Assembly (NCBI RefSeq): GCF_030694575.1
Contig: NZ_JAUYUS010000065.1
Location: forward strand, 1-64,000
DNA: 64,000 nucleotides
From: Parvibaculum sp.
Lineage (GTDB): Bacteria > Pseudomonadota > Alphaproteobacteria > Parvibaculales > Parvibaculaceae
Direction of reading: 5' to 3'
Part shown: one piece after another, positions 29,569 to 36,022 of the stretch
Position numbering within the stretch: the first letter of the stretch is position 1
How the letters are laid out: the number at the start of each line of letters is the position of its first letter
Made by a program: the position numbers and the translations under genes
The notes under the pieces: model-generated
Told to the model about the DNA's origin: nothing
Database searches by the model: none
What the model saw: only the letters and a program-made list of their open reading frames with translations

Positions 29569-31335
29569 ATGACATTCGAGCAGGGATTGTCGTTCGGCAT
29601 CCTCGCGCTCGCGCTGGTGCTTTTCGCGTCGGGCAAGTTCCGCCACGACATCGTTGCGTTGATCGCACTCGTCGCGGTCTCGCTGGCGGGCCTTGTGGAG
29701 CGGGACCAGATCCTGTCGGGCTTCGGCCATCCCGCAGTCATCACCGTCGCCGCCGTACTTGTCGTTTCAGAAGCATTGCGCTCATCCGGCCTCGTTGACG
29801 TCATCGTGCAGCGGGTCGGCCCGCTGACTAAAACGACGGTCGGCCATATCGCCGTGCTGACCGGCATCGTCGCCCTCGCCTCGTCCTTCATGAACAATGT
29901 CGGCGCTCTCGCCGTCATGTTGCCTGTCGCGCTCGCGACGGCGGTTGAACGCGACCGCCCGCCCGCCATGCTTCTGATGCCGCTCGCCTTCGGATCGATG
30001 CTGGGCGGCATGATTACGCTGATCGGCACACCGCCCAACATCATCATCGCAAGCTTCCGCCGCTCCTACGCGGACGAAGCTTTCGGCATGTTCGACTTCG
30101 CCTGGGTGGGGTTGCCTGTCGCCGTTATCGGCATTCTCTTCATCGCCCTGGGCGGCTGGCGCCTGATCCCGCGCGAGCGAAAAGGCGGCGCCGCGGAAAT
30201 GTTCAGCCTCGAGGAATACATCATCGAGGTTCGCGTGAAGGAGAAGAGCCCTCTCGTCGACAAACGGGTCGCCCATATGAAGAGCGCGATGCGGGAGGAT
30301 GTGGCGATCGCCGCACGTGTGCGGGACGACGGCGAGCTCTACGAGCCCGAGAACTGGCAACCTATCGCGGCCGGCGATCTCTTCATCCTGCGCGCGGACC
30401 CCGCCGACCTGACGGAATTTTTCGACAAGCAGGGTCTGGAGCTGGTCGCGACGGATGGCTCCGGCGACGCTCACAAGCCCAACCTGAAGCTGGTCGAGGC
30501 GATCATCGGCCCGAACTCGCCCCTGATCGGCTTCGGTCCCCGGACACTGATGCGTCGCGCCCCGGACGACTTCAACCTTTTTGCCGTGGCGCGACAAGGC
30601 CAGCCCATCGGCGGCCGCCTTCACAACGTGCGCTTCCAGACGGGGGACGTGCTGCTGCTTCAGACGCATGACGGCGAGGAATCGAGTTTCCCCTCCGAAC
30701 TTGGTCTTCTGCCGTTGCCGGAGCGCGGACTCCGGCTCGGCGGGCCGCGCCGTCTCGGCACCGCCTTTTCGATTTTCGCGGGCGCGATCCTGCTGTCCAT
30801 GACGGGCATGCTGCCGCTCGCGGTCGCTTTCCTCGCGGCCATCGTTCTTTATGTAGTCATAGGTATCCTGCCGCTCCGCGATCTCTACCGGCACATCGAC
30901 TGGCCGGTGATCGTTCTGCTCGGTGCGATGATCCCTGTCGGCCAGGCGCTGCAAAACACAGGCGCGGACGTTCTGATCGCCAAAAGCATCGTCGCCACCG
31001 CCGGCACGTTTCCGCCATGGGCGATTATCGCTCTCCTTCTCGTCGTCACGATGCTCATCACCGATGTCATCAACAATGCCGCCACGGCGCTCATCATGGC
31101 GCCGATCTCGATCGCAATCGGACAGGCCCTCGGCGCGAACCCGGACCCTTTCCTGATGGCAGTGGCCATCGGCGCGAGCTGCTCGTTCCTGACACCTATC
31201 GGGCACCAGTCGAACACACTCGTAATGGGGCCGGGCGGCTACAAATTTTCGGATTACTGGCGGCTGGGCCTTCCGCTCGAGATCGTGGTGACGCTCGTCG
31301 CCGTACCGCTGATCCTCTTTGCCTGGCCGCTTTAG
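29569..31335 (+). CDS. SLC13-family permease with two RCK-C (TrkA-C) domains
   Basis: 588-residue membrane transporter of the divalent anion:sodium symporter / ArsB-like group. Membrane half 1 (about 1-200), then two cytoplasmic RCK-C domains (about 210-290 and 300-385), then membrane half 2 (about 395-588) with the conserved NNAATALIMAPISIAI and the GANPDPFLMAVAIGASCSFLTPIGHQSN motif. The ATG abuts the stop of the second hydrolase, implying that it moves a substrate or product of that pathway, perhaps an organic acid; inference. Confidence 0.92.
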   Translation: MTFEQGLSFGILALALVLFASGKFRHDIVALIALVAVSLAGLVERDQILSGFGHPAVITVAAVLVVSEALRSSGLVDVIVQRVGPLTKTTVGHIAVLTGIVALASSFMNNVGALAVMLPVALATAVERDRPPAMLLMPLAFGSMLGGMITLIGTPPNIIIASFRRSYADEAFGMFDFAWVGLPVAVIGILFIALGGWRLIPRERKGGAAEMFSLEEYIIEVRVKEKSPLVDKRVAHMKSAMREDVAIAARVRDDGELYEPENWQPIAAGDLFILRADPADLTEFFDKQGLELVATDGSGDAHKPNLKLVEAIIGPNSPLIGFGPRTLMRRAPDDFNLFAVARQGQPIGGRLHNVRFQTGDVLLLQTHDGEESSFPSELGLLPLPERGLRLGGPRRLGTAFSIFAGAILLSMTGMLPLAVAFLAAIVLYVVIGILPLRDLYRHIDWPVIVLLGAMIPVGQALQNTGADVLIAKSIVATAGTFPPWAIIALLLVVTMLITDVINNAATALIMAPISIAIGQALGANPDPFLMAVAIGASCSFLTPIGHQSNTLVMGPGGYKFSDYWRLGLPLEIVVTLVAVPLILFAWPL

Positions 31336-31964: not shown

Positions 31965-32924
31965 TCAGGACAGGCCGATACGGCCCATCGCAAGGAATTT
32001 CTCCCGCCGCACCCGGCGGATGGAGGTGGCGTCGAGCTTCTCGAGGCCCTTGAGTTCCTCGGCGATGGCGTCGCCCGTTTCCTTGATCATCTGATGGCGC
32101 TCGCGATGCGCCCCGCCGATGGGCTCGGGCAGAACACGGTCGACCACGCCCAACTCGTGAAGATGCTGCGCCGTGATCTTCATGGCCGTCGCCGCCTCCT
32201 TCGCCTTGTCGGAGCTGCGCCACAAGATGGACGAAGCCCCTTCCGGAGAAATGACGCTGTAGATCGAATGCTCCAGCATCAGGACCCGGTTGCCGCAGGC
32301 AATGCCGATGGCACCGCCGGACATACCCTCGCCGATGATGACGGAAATGAGCGGCACTCCGAGCGACAGGCAGCGGTCCGTCGAACGCGCGATTGCCTCG
32401 GCGACGCTGCGCTCTTCGCTTTCCATGCCGGGATAGGCGCCCGACGTATCGGCGAGCGTGACCACGGGGATGCCGAAGCGCTCCGCGAGCGTCATCAGCC
32501 GGATCGCCTTGCGGTAACCCTCAGGCCGCGCCATGCCGAAATTATGCTTGATGCGGCTTTGCGTATCCGACCCCTTTTCGTGGCCGATAAACATGACCGA
32601 ACGGCCGCGGAAGCGGCCAAGCCCGCCGACAATGGCCGAATCCTCGCCATAAAGCCGGTCGCCGGCGAGCGGCGTGAAGTCTTCCGCCAGCCTCTCGACA
32701 TAGTCGAGGAAATGCGGCCGCGCCGGATGACGCGCCACCTGCACTTTTTGCCAGGGCGAGAGCGAGGCGTAGGTTTCCTGCAGAAGCTGAGCGGCTTTTT
32801 GCTCCAGCTTCGAAACTTCATCGCCGATGCTGACGGACGGGTCCTCCTGCGCAAGGAGCTTCAACTCCTGCACCTTGCCTTCCAGTTCCGCTATCGGCTT
32901 TTCGAAATCGAGATAGGTATGCAT
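31965..32924 (-). CDS. accA: Acetyl-CoA carboxylase carboxyltransferase subunit alpha
   Basis: 319 residues from ATG 32924 (MHTYLDFEKPIAELEGKV, the invariant family start). Forms the carboxyltransferase with AccD for malonyl-CoA synthesis. Family motifs visible: KVQVARHPARPHFLDYVE, GRSVMFIGHEKG, PEGYRKAIRLM and GEGMSGGAIGIA. The frame is open ~70 codons upstream but that is non-conserved. accD and other acc genes are not in the window. Confidence 0.97.
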   Translation of the reverse strand: MHTYLDFEKPIAELEGKVQELKLLAQEDPSVSIGDEVSKLEQKAAQLLQETYASLSPWQKVQVARHPARPHFLDYVERLAEDFTPLAGDRLYGEDSAIVGGLGRFRGRSVMFIGHEKGSDTQSRIKHNFGMARPEGYRKAIRLMTLAERFGIPVVTLADTSGAYPGMESEERSVAEAIARSTDRCLSLGVPLISVIIGEGMSGGAIGIACGNRVLMLEHSIYSVISPEGASSILWRSSDKAKEAATAMKITAQHLHELGVVDRVLPEPIGGAHRERHQMIKETGDAIAEELKGLEKLDATSIRRVRREKFLAMGRIGLS

Positions 32925-33092
32925 CGCGCTCCGGCAGCTCCCGCCCGGCCGCCTTCGCGGGAACCGGCCAGCGGTCCTCTCGCTGGGACCAGCTATTTTG
33001 CAAGTGCGCGGCACACTGGCCCGGCCCCGCCCGCTTGTCAACCGGGCGCGGTGGAGAGGGTAAATGGCGGAATCCTGCGCCTCTGCGGGGCG

Positions 33093-33118
33093 GTCACAAA
33101 CGCCGCCCCTGCACCGTC
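33093..33118 (+). promoter_or_regulatory. Predicted ECF41-type promoter
   Basis: GTCACA at 33093-33098 and CGTC at 33115-33118 separated by 16 nt. The described ECF41 promoter signature is TGTCACA in the -35 region and CGTC in the -10 region, so this matches except for the first base (G instead of T). It lies 41 nt before the ATG of the first gene of the operon that encodes an ECF41 sigma factor, as expected for autoregulation. Confidence 0.7.
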
Positions 33119-33158
33119 TTTCTGGTGACAAAGCCCTTCGTTCCCGAGGAGAGACAAG

Positions 33159-33584
33159 ATGACCATGACCACCGTTCCGGCCGCCGCGCGAACTCCCTTG
33201 AAAACGGGTGTCCTCGCTCTCTGGGGCCTTTTCTGGCTCGCCGTGGCGCTCTGGATGCTAGGCGACCCGGCGGGCTGGTATGCCGGCGTTGACGGCGTGC
33301 CGAATACCGGCCCCTACAATCCCCACTTCGTCCGCGACATCGGCATGGCCTATCTGACGCTGGCATTGCTTGTTTTTGCAGCCATTCGCTGGCCGGCGCA
33401 GGCCGTGCCGCTCGTCGGGGCGGGCGCGCTTTTCCTCGGTTTGCACGCCGTTCTGCACGTCTGGGACATCGCGGCGGGGCGCCTGCCGGCGGAACACATC
33501 CTGATGGATATGCCCGGCGTCTTCGTTCCCGTCCTCGTCTCGATCTTTCTCACCTGGTGGTGCGCGCCTGCGCGGGCCGCGTGA
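33159..33584 (+). CDS. Small multi-pass membrane protein in ECF41 operon
   Basis: 141 residues, about four hydrophobic helices (about 17-36, 62-79, 82-105, 112-135). GAGGAGAG precedes the ATG. I do not recognise a named family; the look is DoxX-like or a general small membrane protein. First gene of a three-gene operon behind a predicted ECF41 promoter; the next gene starts 17 nt later, so it is probably co-regulated and may be a target or sensor in the same response. Confidence 0.8.
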   Translation: MTMTTVPAAARTPLKTGVLALWGLFWLAVALWMLGDPAGWYAGVDGVPNTGPYNPHFVRDIGMAYLTLALLVFAAIRWPAQAVPLVGAGALFLGLHAVLHVWDIAAGRLPAEHILMDMPGVFVPVLVSIFLTWWCAPARAA

Positions 33585-33601
33585 TTCAAGGAGAAACGCT
33601 T

Positions 33602-34156
33602 ATGCTGAAAGGCATTATTGAACGCATGATCCGCAAACAGGAAATCGCGACTGGCGAAAGCGCCGATTTTCTGCGGGATATGTACGGCGCGGCGCCGGGC
33701 GGTTTCTGGCGCTTTGCCTTGTTCGTGCCCATGAGCCGCTTCCGGCCGGCGCTGCCCCTCGACGCGGCCTGCGCGGTTCGGATTGCCGCCGTCCATGCCG
33801 AAGATTGCGGCCCCTGTCTTCAAACTGTCATAAATCTGTCACTCGCTGCCGGAGCCAGCCCGGAGGTGCTCCGCGCCGCCGTCGCGGAAGACCTCGCGGC
33901 GATGGACGAAAGGACCCGCACCGCGTTCGAATTCGCACGCGCGATCGCGGCACGCGACATCCATGCCGAAGACCTCAGGCCCGTCATCGAACGCTGGTGG
34001 GGCAAAGCGGGGATAACTGAAATCGCCCTCGCCATCGCGTCCACCCGCGTCTTCCCGACGGTCAAGCGCGCGATGGGTTATGCTCAGGCCTGCCAGCGCG
34101 TCGTGATCGAAGGCGAGGAAACGAATGCGCGGCTGAGAGAGGCGGCAGCAGCATGA
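33602..34156 (+). CDS. Carboxymuconolactone decarboxylase / AhpD-like protein (COE partner of ECF41)
   Basis: 184 residues; AAGGAG before the ATG. All-helical CMD/AhpD-like fold with CGPC at 69-72. In AhpD the pair is followed by His (CxxCxxxH); here that position (76) is Val, so the full peroxidase relay is not intact. ECF41 sigma genes are characteristically linked to a carboxymuconolactone decarboxylase, oxidoreductase or epimerase (COE) gene, and this is that partner. Stop overlaps the sigma factor start (ATGA). Confidence 0.88.
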   Translation: MLKGIIERMIRKQEIATGESADFLRDMYGAAPGGFWRFALFVPMSRFRPALPLDAACAVRIAAVHAEDCGPCLQTVINLSLAAGASPEVLRAAVAEDLAAMDERTRTAFEFARAIAARDIHAEDLRPVIERWWGKAGITEIALAIASTRVFPTVKRAMGYAQACQRVVIEGEETNARLREAAAA

Positions 34157-35046
34157 CCGCAACGGCGAAGCCAACCGATACGGACAGGATATTCGAGCGC
34201 CATCGCGGGCGCGCCTTCGCCGTCGCCTACCGCATTCTCGGTTCGGCGTCGGACGCGGAGGACGCGGTGCAGGAGGCCTGGCTTCGCTGGCGCGGCACCG
34301 ACACGGCAGGTATCCGCAATCCCGAAGCCTGGCTCGTGACCACGGTGGCCCGGCTTGCCATCGACCAGCTCCGCACCGCCCGCGCGCGCCGGGAGACCTA
34401 TATCGGACCCTGGCTGCCCGAACCCATCGTCTCGGCCGCGCGCGAAAGCGATCCGACGCCCGAAGACCGGCTCTCGCTCGCCGACGATATCTCGATGGCG
34501 CTGCTTCATGTTCTCGAGCGCCTTGCGCCGGAGGAACGCGCCGCATTCCTGCTGCACGACGCATTCGACTACGACTACGGCGAACTGGCCGCGCTGCTCG
34601 GCAAATCGGAAGCCGCCTGCCGCCAGACGGTGAGCCGCGCAAGACGGCGCGTGCAGGAGACGCATCCGCGCTTCGACACCAGCGCGCGCGAACATGCACG
34701 CCTCGCGGCTGCGTTCAGCGCCGCGATTTCATCCGCCGATCCGCAGGCGCTGATCGCGTGCTTTACCGAGGACGTCGTTTTCTATTCCGATGGCGGCGGC
34801 AAGGCGATCGCAGCGCTCAACCCCATCCATGGCGCCGACCACGTGATGCGTTTCTTCTTCGGCATACTGAAAAAGAGACCCGAGGCGCTCAACGCCCGGC
34901 CGGCTCTGGTCAACGGATTGCCGGGCTTCGTCATGACGGAGGGCGAGACGATACACTCGACGCTTGGTTTCGCCATCACCGGCGGAAAGATTTCCGCGCT
35001 CTACATGATGCGCAATCCCGACAAGCTCGGGCGCGTCGAACTCTAG
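34153..35046 (+). CDS. ECF41-family RNA polymerase sigma factor (SigJ-like) with SnoaL-type C-terminal domain
   Basis: 297 residues. Sigma-70 region 2 (about 12-80), linker with the WLPEP motif at 87-91, region 4 (about 110-168), then a SnoaL-like extension (about 180-295) carrying DGGGK at 213-217 and NPDKL at 288-292. These three motifs are the published hallmarks of ECF41, whose C-terminal extension takes the place of an anti-sigma factor and tunes activity. Start overlaps the COE gene stop. No separate anti-sigma gene nearby, as expected for this group. Confidence 0.95.
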   Translation: MTATAKPTDTDRIFERHRGRAFAVAYRILGSASDAEDAVQEAWLRWRGTDTAGIRNPEAWLVTTVARLAIDQLRTARARRETYIGPWLPEPIVSAARESDPTPEDRLSLADDISMALLHVLERLAPEERAAFLLHDAFDYDYGELAALLGKSEAACRQTVSRARRRVQETHPRFDTSAREHARLAAAFSAAISSADPQALIACFTEDVVFYSDGGGKAIAALNPIHGADHVMRFFFGILKKRPEALNARPALVNGLPGFVMTEGETIHSTLGFAITGGKISALYMMRNPDKLGRVEL

Positions 35047-35053
35047 AGCAGGG

Positions 35054-36022
35054 TCAGGACGCCTTGCCCTTCTTCGCGAGCGGGTGATGCGTCTGCACCA
35101 GCTCCTTAAGCCGCTCGTCCAGCACATGCGTGTAAATCTGCGTGGTCGAGATGTCGGCATGGCCGAGCATCTGCTGTACGGCGCGCAGATCGGCGCCGTT
35201 GGCGAGGAGATGGCTCGCAAATGCGTGGCGCAGCGTATGCGGCGACACGCGCGTCGCATCGAGACCTGCCGCCACGGCGAGATCCTTCAACAACTGCGCG
35301 AAACGGTGGCGCGTGAGATGCCCCTGCCGGCCGCGCGACGGAAAGAGCCAGGGCGACACCTGCTCGCCGAGGCGCATCGAGCGGAGCGGCAGATAGGCGT
35401 CGATCGCGGCGCGGGCGGTTTCGGAAAGCGGCACCAGCCGCTCGCGCCCGCCCTTGCCGCTGACGGCGAGAAAACGCTCCTGCCCCCGCACGGCCGAAAG
35501 CGGCAGCCCGACAAGCTCCGAGACGCGGAGGCCGGTGGCGTAGAGAACTTCCATGAGGCAGACGAGACGCGCGCGCTTGTAGGCGAGCACGGCTTCTTCC
35601 TGGGTGCGGCCGTCTTCCGCGCGCTGCGCGGCGGAGAGAAGCGCATCGACCTCTTCGACCGTCAGCGTCTTCGGCAAGGGCCGCGCGCGGCGCGGACCCT
35701 CGATGGAACCGCAGGGATCGTCGGGACGAATGCCCTCGGCGAACAGGAAACCGTGAAATTGGCGAATGGCGGAGAGACGCCGCGCCGCCGTCGAGGCGGA
35801 CAGCCCCTGCTCGGAGAGGCTTTCCAGATAATTGCGCACATCGCTTGCTGAGGCTTGAACAAGACTGCGGCCATGCGAGGAGAGAAAGCCGGAAAAATCC
35901 TTCAGATCGCGTTCATAGGCGTCGAGCGTATTGCGGGCAGCGCCGCGCTCCGCGCTCAGCATTTCAAGAAAGGCTTCGAGATGATGCCCGCGCTCCTGAG
36001 ACTCTTTCGACATGTAACTCAC
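35054..36022 (-). CDS. xerD: Site-specific tyrosine recombinase XerD
   Basis: 322 residues. SAM-like N-terminal core-binding domain (about 12-100), catalytic domain with Arg in ATGLRVSEL, HTLRHAFASHLL and final Tyr in TQIYTHV, all tyrosine-recombinase residues in place. Works with XerC at dif to resolve chromosome dimers. Chosen start MSYMSKESQ; a Met three codons in is equally possible. Last gene of a run with the secreted repeat-like protein (7 nt upstream); convergent with the sigma factor gene (7 nt). Confidence 0.93.
   Translation of the reverse strand: MSYMSKESQERGHHLEAFLEMLSAERGAARNTLDAYERDLKDFSGFLSSHGRSLVQASASDVRNYLESLSEQGLSASTAARRLSAIRQFHGFLFAEGIRPDDPCGSIEGPRRARPLPKTLTVEEVDALLSAAQRAEDGRTQEEAVLAYKRARLVCLMEVLYATGLRVSELVGLPLSAVRGQERFLAVSGKGGRERLVPLSETARAAIDAYLPLRSMRLGEQVSPWLFPSRGRQGHLTRHRFAQLLKDLAVAAGLDATRVSPHTLRHAFASHLLANGADLRAVQQMLGHADISTTQIYTHVLDERLKELVQTHHPLAKKGKAS

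Follow-up and report, generated by a model that had tools for sequence, protein, structure and literature searches.

A conserved four-helix membrane protein heads an ECF41 sigma-factor operon in Parvibaculum and recurs beside ECF41 genes of other bacterial families

ECF41 is a widespread sigma-factor group that its founding study (Wecke et al. 2012, PMC3426412) describes as having no anti-sigma gene; its signal and purpose were not known in that study. The C-terminal extension of these sigma factors is both inhibitory and partly required, their targets are a COE gene or operon, the only conserved ones being COE or sigma genes, and the locus survey mentions hypothetical genes with the promoter or in between the sigma and COE genes (PMC3426412). 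Close described counterparts are RSP_0606-ecf41Rsp of Rhodobacter sphaeroides and SMb20029-rpoE9 of Sinorhizobium meliloti, in which a carboxymuconolactone-decarboxylase-like gene (CMD) lies upstream of the sigma gene, is likely co-transcribed with it and follows the promoter (PMC3426412, PMC6180224). Here we analyze a locus in 64,000 nucleotides of a Parvibaculum sp. contig (NZ_JAUYUS010000065.1, positions 1 to 64,000; hereafter the window) from a draft genome of 135 contigs (G000), where a CMD gene and an ECF41 sigma gene are preceded by a gene for a small membrane protein that we call MEM. The locus resembles the ECF41 group (PMC3426412; SigJ, TIGR02957/NF007214) in its sigma-factor domains, WLPEP, DGGGK and NPDKL motifs and SnoaL_2-like extension, in its COE-then-sigma order, in the TGTCACA-N16-CGTC-type promoter before its first gene and in having no anti-sigma gene in sight. 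It differs from the group in being headed by a conserved membrane gene and in its −35 element, GGTCACA, and from the Rhodobacter and Sinorhizobium pairs, which it otherwise resembles, in that there CMD or its operon is described as the sole target and the passages at hand mention no membrane gene (PMC3426412, PMC6180224).

Our main finding is that MEM is a recurrent, promoter-bearing companion of ECF41 genes, and we lean, with modest confidence, towards a self-amplifying ECF41 operon in which MEM is a regulated effector that forms a membrane-bound redox unit with CMD. As far as our searches show, the ECF41 module type is known, whereas its conserved membrane partner and the promoter-bearing unlinked copies of that partner have not been described under a name; titles and abstract openings in the literature yielded no named MEM-like membrane partner of ECF41. 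Some MEM genes may already be drawn in the PMC3426412 survey, unrecognized as one family. MEM looks like an overlooked working part of this sigma-factor group, and its linkage in 15 family-level groups offers a concrete handle on ECF41 signal and purpose.

All parts of the operon lie on the plus strand, in the order promoter, MEM, CMD and sigma factor. By direct reading the promoter, GGTCACA-N16-CGTC, occupies 33092-33118 (GGTCACA at 33092-33098, a spacer of 16 bases, CGTC at 33115-33118), and 40 bases separate its end from the start codon of MEM (33159-33584, open reading frame with ATG at 33159), which encodes 141 residues. CMD follows at 33602-34156 (184 residues; ATG at 33602 by direct reading) and carries a CGPC motif at residues 69-72 (33806-33817, by motif search), and the 297-residue sigma factor occupies 34153-35046. 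The CMD stop codon and the sigma ATG at 34153 overlap as ATGA (34153-34156), as an earlier, model-made note on this DNA, hereafter the original prediction, had it in proposing translational coupling. Sigma2 (PF04542) and sigma4 (PF08281) domains score above cut-off in the sigma factor, no sigma3 domain is present, and the C-terminal SnoaL-like extension matches SnoaL_2 at 25.6 bits, slightly under the cut-off of 27. The protein further scores 337.2 bits against TIGR02957 (cut-off 323.25) and 356.7 bits against NF007214 SigJ (cut-off 271), aligns over nearly its full length (14-292) with SigJ of PDB 5xe7 at E 6.5e-57, and holds the hallmark motifs WLPEP (residues 87-91, 34411-34425), DGGGK (213-217, 34789-34803) and NPDKL (288-292, 35014-35028) exactly where the original prediction had placed them, by direct reading and by motif search. 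By family-model score, SigJ similarity and motifs, the gene thus classifies as ECF41, and it is the single ECF41 gene found in its own genome, the three other sigma matches being weak (best E 3.9e-9).

First, the promoter gains its weight from comparison. The site as originally predicted, GTCACA-N16-CGTC, stands, while the search pattern offered with it does not: TGTCACA-N15..18-CGTC has no match in the window, because the −35 element reads GGTCACA and so departs by one base from the TGTCACA of the literature. With N16 and up to one mismatch the site is the only match on either strand of the window (shuffle mean 0.64), and such a plus-strand match arises in 27 of 20,000 mononucleotide shuffles of the intergenic DNA (234 bp). 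Taken alone, this excess over chance is modest; what makes the promoter firm is the comparison across 77 MEM genes, that is, all places of MEM in our genome samples after removal of duplicates (G, C and L are our handles for genomes, contigs and loci; 20 named loci, L031-L050, stand outside this set). Counting as linked every MEM gene with an ECF41 gene no more than 2.5 kb downstream, 49 of the 77 lie just upstream of ECF41, spread over 15 family-level groups with 30 in the family of the window and 19 in the 14 others, and all 49 are preceded by the promoter with at most one mismatch (39 exact, 10 with one mismatch). It is absent before 23 of the 28 MEM genes that have no sigma gene nearby. 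The hallmark motifs recur in the 47 of the 49 linked loci that were read (WLPEP in 44, DGGGK in 42 plus DGGGR in two, NPDKL in 41). Among the 20 named loci, a sigma gene lies downstream of MEM in 14, with an exact promoter in 13 (including L040, where it is upstream only if MEM begins at its second ATG) and one mismatch in L042.

The genome-wide promoter search suggested earlier was run on the window's own genome and yielded 21 matches to KGTCACA-N15..17-CGTC, against one for a reversed control pattern. Fifteen of these, including the site of the module itself, are GGTCACA, and one match of the form TGTCACA-N15 (C56:82909) carries a spaced TGTCACA repeat that resembles what we take to be a Pho-type box. 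With no exact site, mostly GGTCACA and one Pho-like match, we drew no regulon from this list.

Second, MEM and ECF41 keep company at the level of whole genomes. In an even, class-wide sample of 385 genomes, MEM occurs in 23 (25 genes) and ECF41 in 64 (65 loci); ECF41 is present in 22 of the 23 MEM genomes, compared with 64 of all 385 (Fisher p 4.5e-18), and in seven of the eight MEM genomes that lack a linked pair (hypergeometric p 3.5e-6), p values that ignore kinship. In this sample 15 of 25 MEM genes lie beside the sigma gene, and by synteny, here and in the 77-gene set, the original prediction's proposal that the membrane gene is an added ECF41 member is supported: the condition named there as weakening it, homologs that never neighbor ECF41 genes, does not hold. 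The counts may be low: six sigma and ten MEM candidates were scored per genome, and the sigma cut-off of 190 bits was set by us. Among the 398 genomes of a phylum sample, MEM was found in 17, of which 16 belong to the window's class, whose share of the 398 is not shown, and one named MEM locus, L047, is a gammaproteobacterial metagenome-assembled genome (MAG).

The original prediction had called the second gene a CMD/AhpD-like COE partner; its CGPC motif and its ATGA-coupled position as a COE-type gene adjoining the sigma gene hold up, and Pfam support falls short (PF02627, 19 bits under a cut-off of 23, E 0.0014). A CxxC pattern is present in every one of the 44 CMD frames read across 47 of the 49 linked loci; the other three loci have no CMD. 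CMD comes in two kinds at the ECF41 loci of the class sample, a long kind that has a DCGPC-like motif, as in the window, and a short AhpD type. MEM accompanies the sigma gene at 15 of 27 loci of the long type and at 0 of 29 of the short (p 1.1e-6). This test covered 64 loci (49 unlinked and 15 linked, G131 left out), excluded eight unlinked loci with neither type, scored one locus with both kinds as long, and assigned the kinds by best tblastn query only.

Such linkage might in principle reflect nothing more than shared descent, with MEM a passenger of the ECF41 locus that has no functional tie to it. In the window the operon is flanked by minus-strand genes that we take, from their sequences, to be accA (start codon at 32924 by direct reading) and xerD (35054-36022), and accA lies beside MEM at 24 of 24 loci from the window's genus and the sister genus g4 (L001-L024), as well as in G090, as a passenger would predict. 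In 11 sigma-linked loci of Caulobacter type (L035-L043, L046, L048), neither of the flanking genes accA and xerD turned up; the accA pattern therefore points to one inherited site near the window's lineage and to other sites elsewhere, and it is this occurrence of linked MEM at different sites in other families, together with the genome-level co-occurrence of unlinked MEM with ECF41 and the promoter kept before unlinked MEM genes (G161 and G302, and with one mismatch G264 and G347), that leads us to disfavor the passenger explanation as highly improbable. The accA-xerD site itself holds an ECF41 operon in the window (32924-35054), G033, G029 and G161, and in G347 with an extra gene on the xerD side (L166, L168, L092, L248); G161 and G347, from other family groups, lack MEM at this site.

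Third, the MEM protein offers structural hints at its role. As the original prediction found, it is a small membrane protein that resists assignment: the window protein has no credible Pfam match (two at E 0.03-0.05) and no NCBIfam match, all listed MEM records with a name read 'hypothetical protein', and the closest named relatives are Parvibaculum MAGs and one alphaproteobacterial MAG. An AlphaFold2 model built from 19 sequences (mean pLDDT, a residue-level confidence score, 89.7) has long helices at 8-35, 55-77, 79-105 and 113-135, with seven residues before the first helix, six after the fourth and a turn of about one residue between the second and third transmembrane helices. Lysine plus arginine per sequence amount to 1.18 at the N-terminus, 0.14, 1.14 and 0.71 in loops 1, 2 and 3, and 2.11 at the C-terminus, a distribution from which both ends are predicted to lie inside, with loop 1 and the corresponding ends of the second, third and fourth helices facing outward. 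Ten columns are invariant in 28 homologues (W40, G46, G51, N54, H56, D60, G62, H96, H100 and P124), and R59, D103 and D117 are nearly so; N29 is missing from the window protein alone. In the model, N54, H56, R59, D60, H96, H100, D103 and D117 lie towards the predicted periplasmic side. DUF4345 (PF14248) and DoxX-like (PF13564) proteins are likewise small membrane proteins; the window MEM matches neither family, four of the 28 homologues match DUF4345 weakly, one matches DoxX_2, and even the best homologue stays below the DUF4345 gathering cut-off. We therefore describe MEM as remotely similar to DUF4345/DoxX-like four-helix membrane proteins and do not place it in either family. Sequence searches of solved structures with CMD and with the MEM profile returned nothing at E <= 1. 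The best match of the MEM model in a fold search (VIA Z 10.6, root-mean-square deviation 8.0 over 131 residues) is below the level that the tool gives for helical bundles, and PDB matches to tetraspanins, VKOR, EBP and NACHO lie inside helical-bundle noise, so that we assign MEM no fold.

This architecture bears directly on the most serious rival, in which MEM is a membrane sensor or anchor that acts on the sigma factor itself as a second layer over the SnoaL_2-like domain. Such a role would explain MEM-sigma pairs that have no CMD, and MEM does stand directly before an intact sigma gene without CMD in three genomes of two lineages, G033 and G029 (one genus) and G541. In the first two, accA and xerD flank the pair as in the window, so that MEM has stayed and CMD is missing; both genomes hold a short-type CMD gene and a Pyr_redox_2 gene elsewhere, each with an exact promoter, and G541 carries a divergent MBL-fold gene with an exact promoter of its own. 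The two genes are also tightly spaced on some plasmids, with a gap of 58 bases in Sphingobium sp. YBL2 and an overlap on pSA2 of Novosphingobium resinovorum, and the conserved residues face the predicted periplasm, as a sensor's might. However, classical membrane-bound ECF anti-sigma factors carry a cytoplasmic sigma-binding domain beside the membrane helix, a domain usually larger than either free end of MEM; the seven and six terminal residues of the model, short and both predicted inside, leave no room for one, so that MEM does not look like a protein of this class. Moreover, MEM is an optional partner, absent beside 50 of the 65 ECF41 loci in the class sample; it lies apart from the sigma gene under its own promoter in G161 and G302, and enzyme genes accompany some of its sigma-free copies. 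The Bacillus licheniformis ECF41 factor also works in Bacillus subtilis, from which the founding study argues that a further protein is unlikely to take part (PMC3426412). On balance we regard a direct action on the sigma factor as unlikely, though it deserves the first hearing among the alternatives.

The MEM genes without a sigma gene nearby are informative here. Five of the 28 have the promoter: G022, truncated at a contig end, and G161, G264, G302 and G347, whose genomes carry an ECF41 gene at another place. In G161, C16 holds MEM alone under an exact promoter and C3 holds CMD-sigma under an exact promoter of its own, and G302 has MEM-CMD with an exact promoter on C4 and the sigma gene on C2; in these two, ECF41 likely controls MEM in trans, to judge from the DNA, and G264 and G347, with one mismatch each, are weaker cases. 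ECF41 regulons may thus exceed one operon in some genomes. Exact TGTCACA-N16-CGTC sites also precede sigma-distant short AhpD-type CMD genes in G035, G028, G129, G029 and G033 (L171, L172, L178, L160, L159), which likewise suggests multi-site ECF41 regulons. In the DNA examined, which for several of these genes was just 1.5 kb on each side, seven of the 28 have a CMD, NmrA-type or MBL-fold neighbor: NmrA-MEM-CMD in G204 and G316, MEM-CMD in G302, G608 and the cut G022, CMD-MEM in G039, and MEM facing an MBL-fold gene in G697. Two of the 28 lie at contig ends, the first copy of G022 and the second copy of G012, the latter outside the neighbor survey. Outside the 28, the arrangement NmrA-MEM occurs in Bosea sp. 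BK604, and NmrA-type and MBL-fold genes surround MEM in Bosea sp. Tri-44. Of 27 plasmid records that match MEM, six were examined, and in each of these an NmrA-type match lies close to MEM (five whole genes, one fragment). MEM lies near NmrA-type, MBL-fold and CMD genes on pT173c of Ensifer canadensis, near NmrA-type and MBL-fold genes on Skermanella mucosa pSM-3 and in Bosea sp. NBC_00550, near NmrA-type and CMD-like genes on Sinorhizobium medicae pSymA, and near NmrA-type and ECF41 genes on N. resinovorum pSA2 and in Sphingobium sp. YBL2; on pSA2 an exact promoter is followed in succession by an NAD(P)H-binding protein, MEM and ECF41, with CMD divergent.

It is these unlinked, promoter-bearing copies, the gene company of MEM and its size that make an effector under ECF41 control, neither a bystander nor a classical anti-sigma factor, its most likely identity. 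In the mechanism we favor, the C-terminal SnoaL_2-like domain would restrain the sigma factor, as has been published for other members of the group, until some signal frees it to transcribe all three genes, MEM, CMD and sigma, from 33092-33118; this probable autoregulation, which we infer from the promoter, would create positive feedback. MEM and the CxxC protein CMD would then, we think, act in contact as a membrane-bound redox unit against peroxides, thiols or quinone-like electrophiles. A mycobacterial DoxX-containing membrane-associated oxidoreductase complex, which joins a small DoxX-like protein to soluble redox enzymes, provides a parallel by analogy alone, with no homology shown to MEM or CMD. 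A bolder and doubtful extension is that ECF41 in Alphaproteobacteria runs a distributed regulon in which MEM docks COE enzymes at the membrane and the state of the complex sets ECF41 activity. It is equally tentative that the docked enzymes would be the CxxC CMD, an NmrA-type NAD(P)H-binding protein and an MBL-fold hydrolase, with the periplasmic His/Asp/Asn set as the site of MEM. If true, such a distributed membrane redox regulon would supply the missing substrate and signal of ECF41.

Several observations weigh against the redox-effector reading. The redox role rests on gene neighbors and on the weak DUF4345 resemblance of four homologues in 28, the best of which (MEM of G033, E 2.4e-5) reaches 24.8 bits against a cut-off of 26.5, and Foldseek found no PDB match for the MEM model at E <= 0.001. 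The −35 element of the window is one base off consensus, as it is in G013, G043 and G347, and a genome-wide pattern search found no exact TGTCACA-N16-CGTC in the window's own genome. The 50 ECF41 loci without an adjacent MEM count here too, and the linked cases are not independent: 30 of the 49 come from one family, with 24 of 24 tested at one inherited site. In G006, counted among the 49, the sigma gene is only a fragment, and the sigma-linked MEM of Sphingobium sp. YBL2, outside the counted set, has no promoter even at two mismatches. On the sigma tree, made by a quick method from 77 rows (63 class-sample loci, which are all 65 except the short G065 and the partial G131, together with 14 added MEM-linked rows), linked MEM needs at least nine changes, three of them forced by starred branches, and none of 500 shuffles was as low, so that the link is clustered yet has been gained or lost several times. 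A single origin of the link, in its simple form, is rejected on the same count. Finally, 21 of the 28 unlinked MEM genes have no COE- or MBL-type neighbor in the DNA examined, ten of them being second copies in relatives of Parvibaculum. This last point also feeds a further alternative, that MEM serves the same stress response as a non-redox membrane protein, be it a transporter, a scramblase or a lipid-modifying enzyme; no family of known function matches MEM, and the alpha/beta hydrolases and MBL-fold proteins among its neighbors are not redox enzymes as such. The preference of MEM for loci with the long CxxC CMD speaks against it, as does the invariant His/Asp/Asn set, which within only 141 residues would fit a catalytic or cofactor site, and we consider this alternative improbable, if well short of negligible.

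A few features around these loci complete the picture. At G006 (L093:3761-4611), MEM runs into the C-terminal half of the sigma gene, with CMD and the sigma N-terminus missing and the promoter exact. On the Sphingobium sp. YBL2 plasmid (L250:3361-4755), an NmrA-type fragment is followed by MEM and ECF41, with no ECF41-type promoter in 7.3 kb. Relatives of Parvibaculum hold a second MEM paralogue without promoter (L076-L080, L094, L192-L195), near which EamA-like, hydrolase-like and IclR-like genes, named by eye, are seen in L079, L080 and L094. In the window itself, a CitMHS/DASS-type transporter gene with a TrkA_C domain lies at 29569-31335 behind an epoxide-hydrolase-like gene (the latter named by eye), and similar transporter and hydrolase-like genes occur in the same order near the MEM-sigma pair of G033 (L092).

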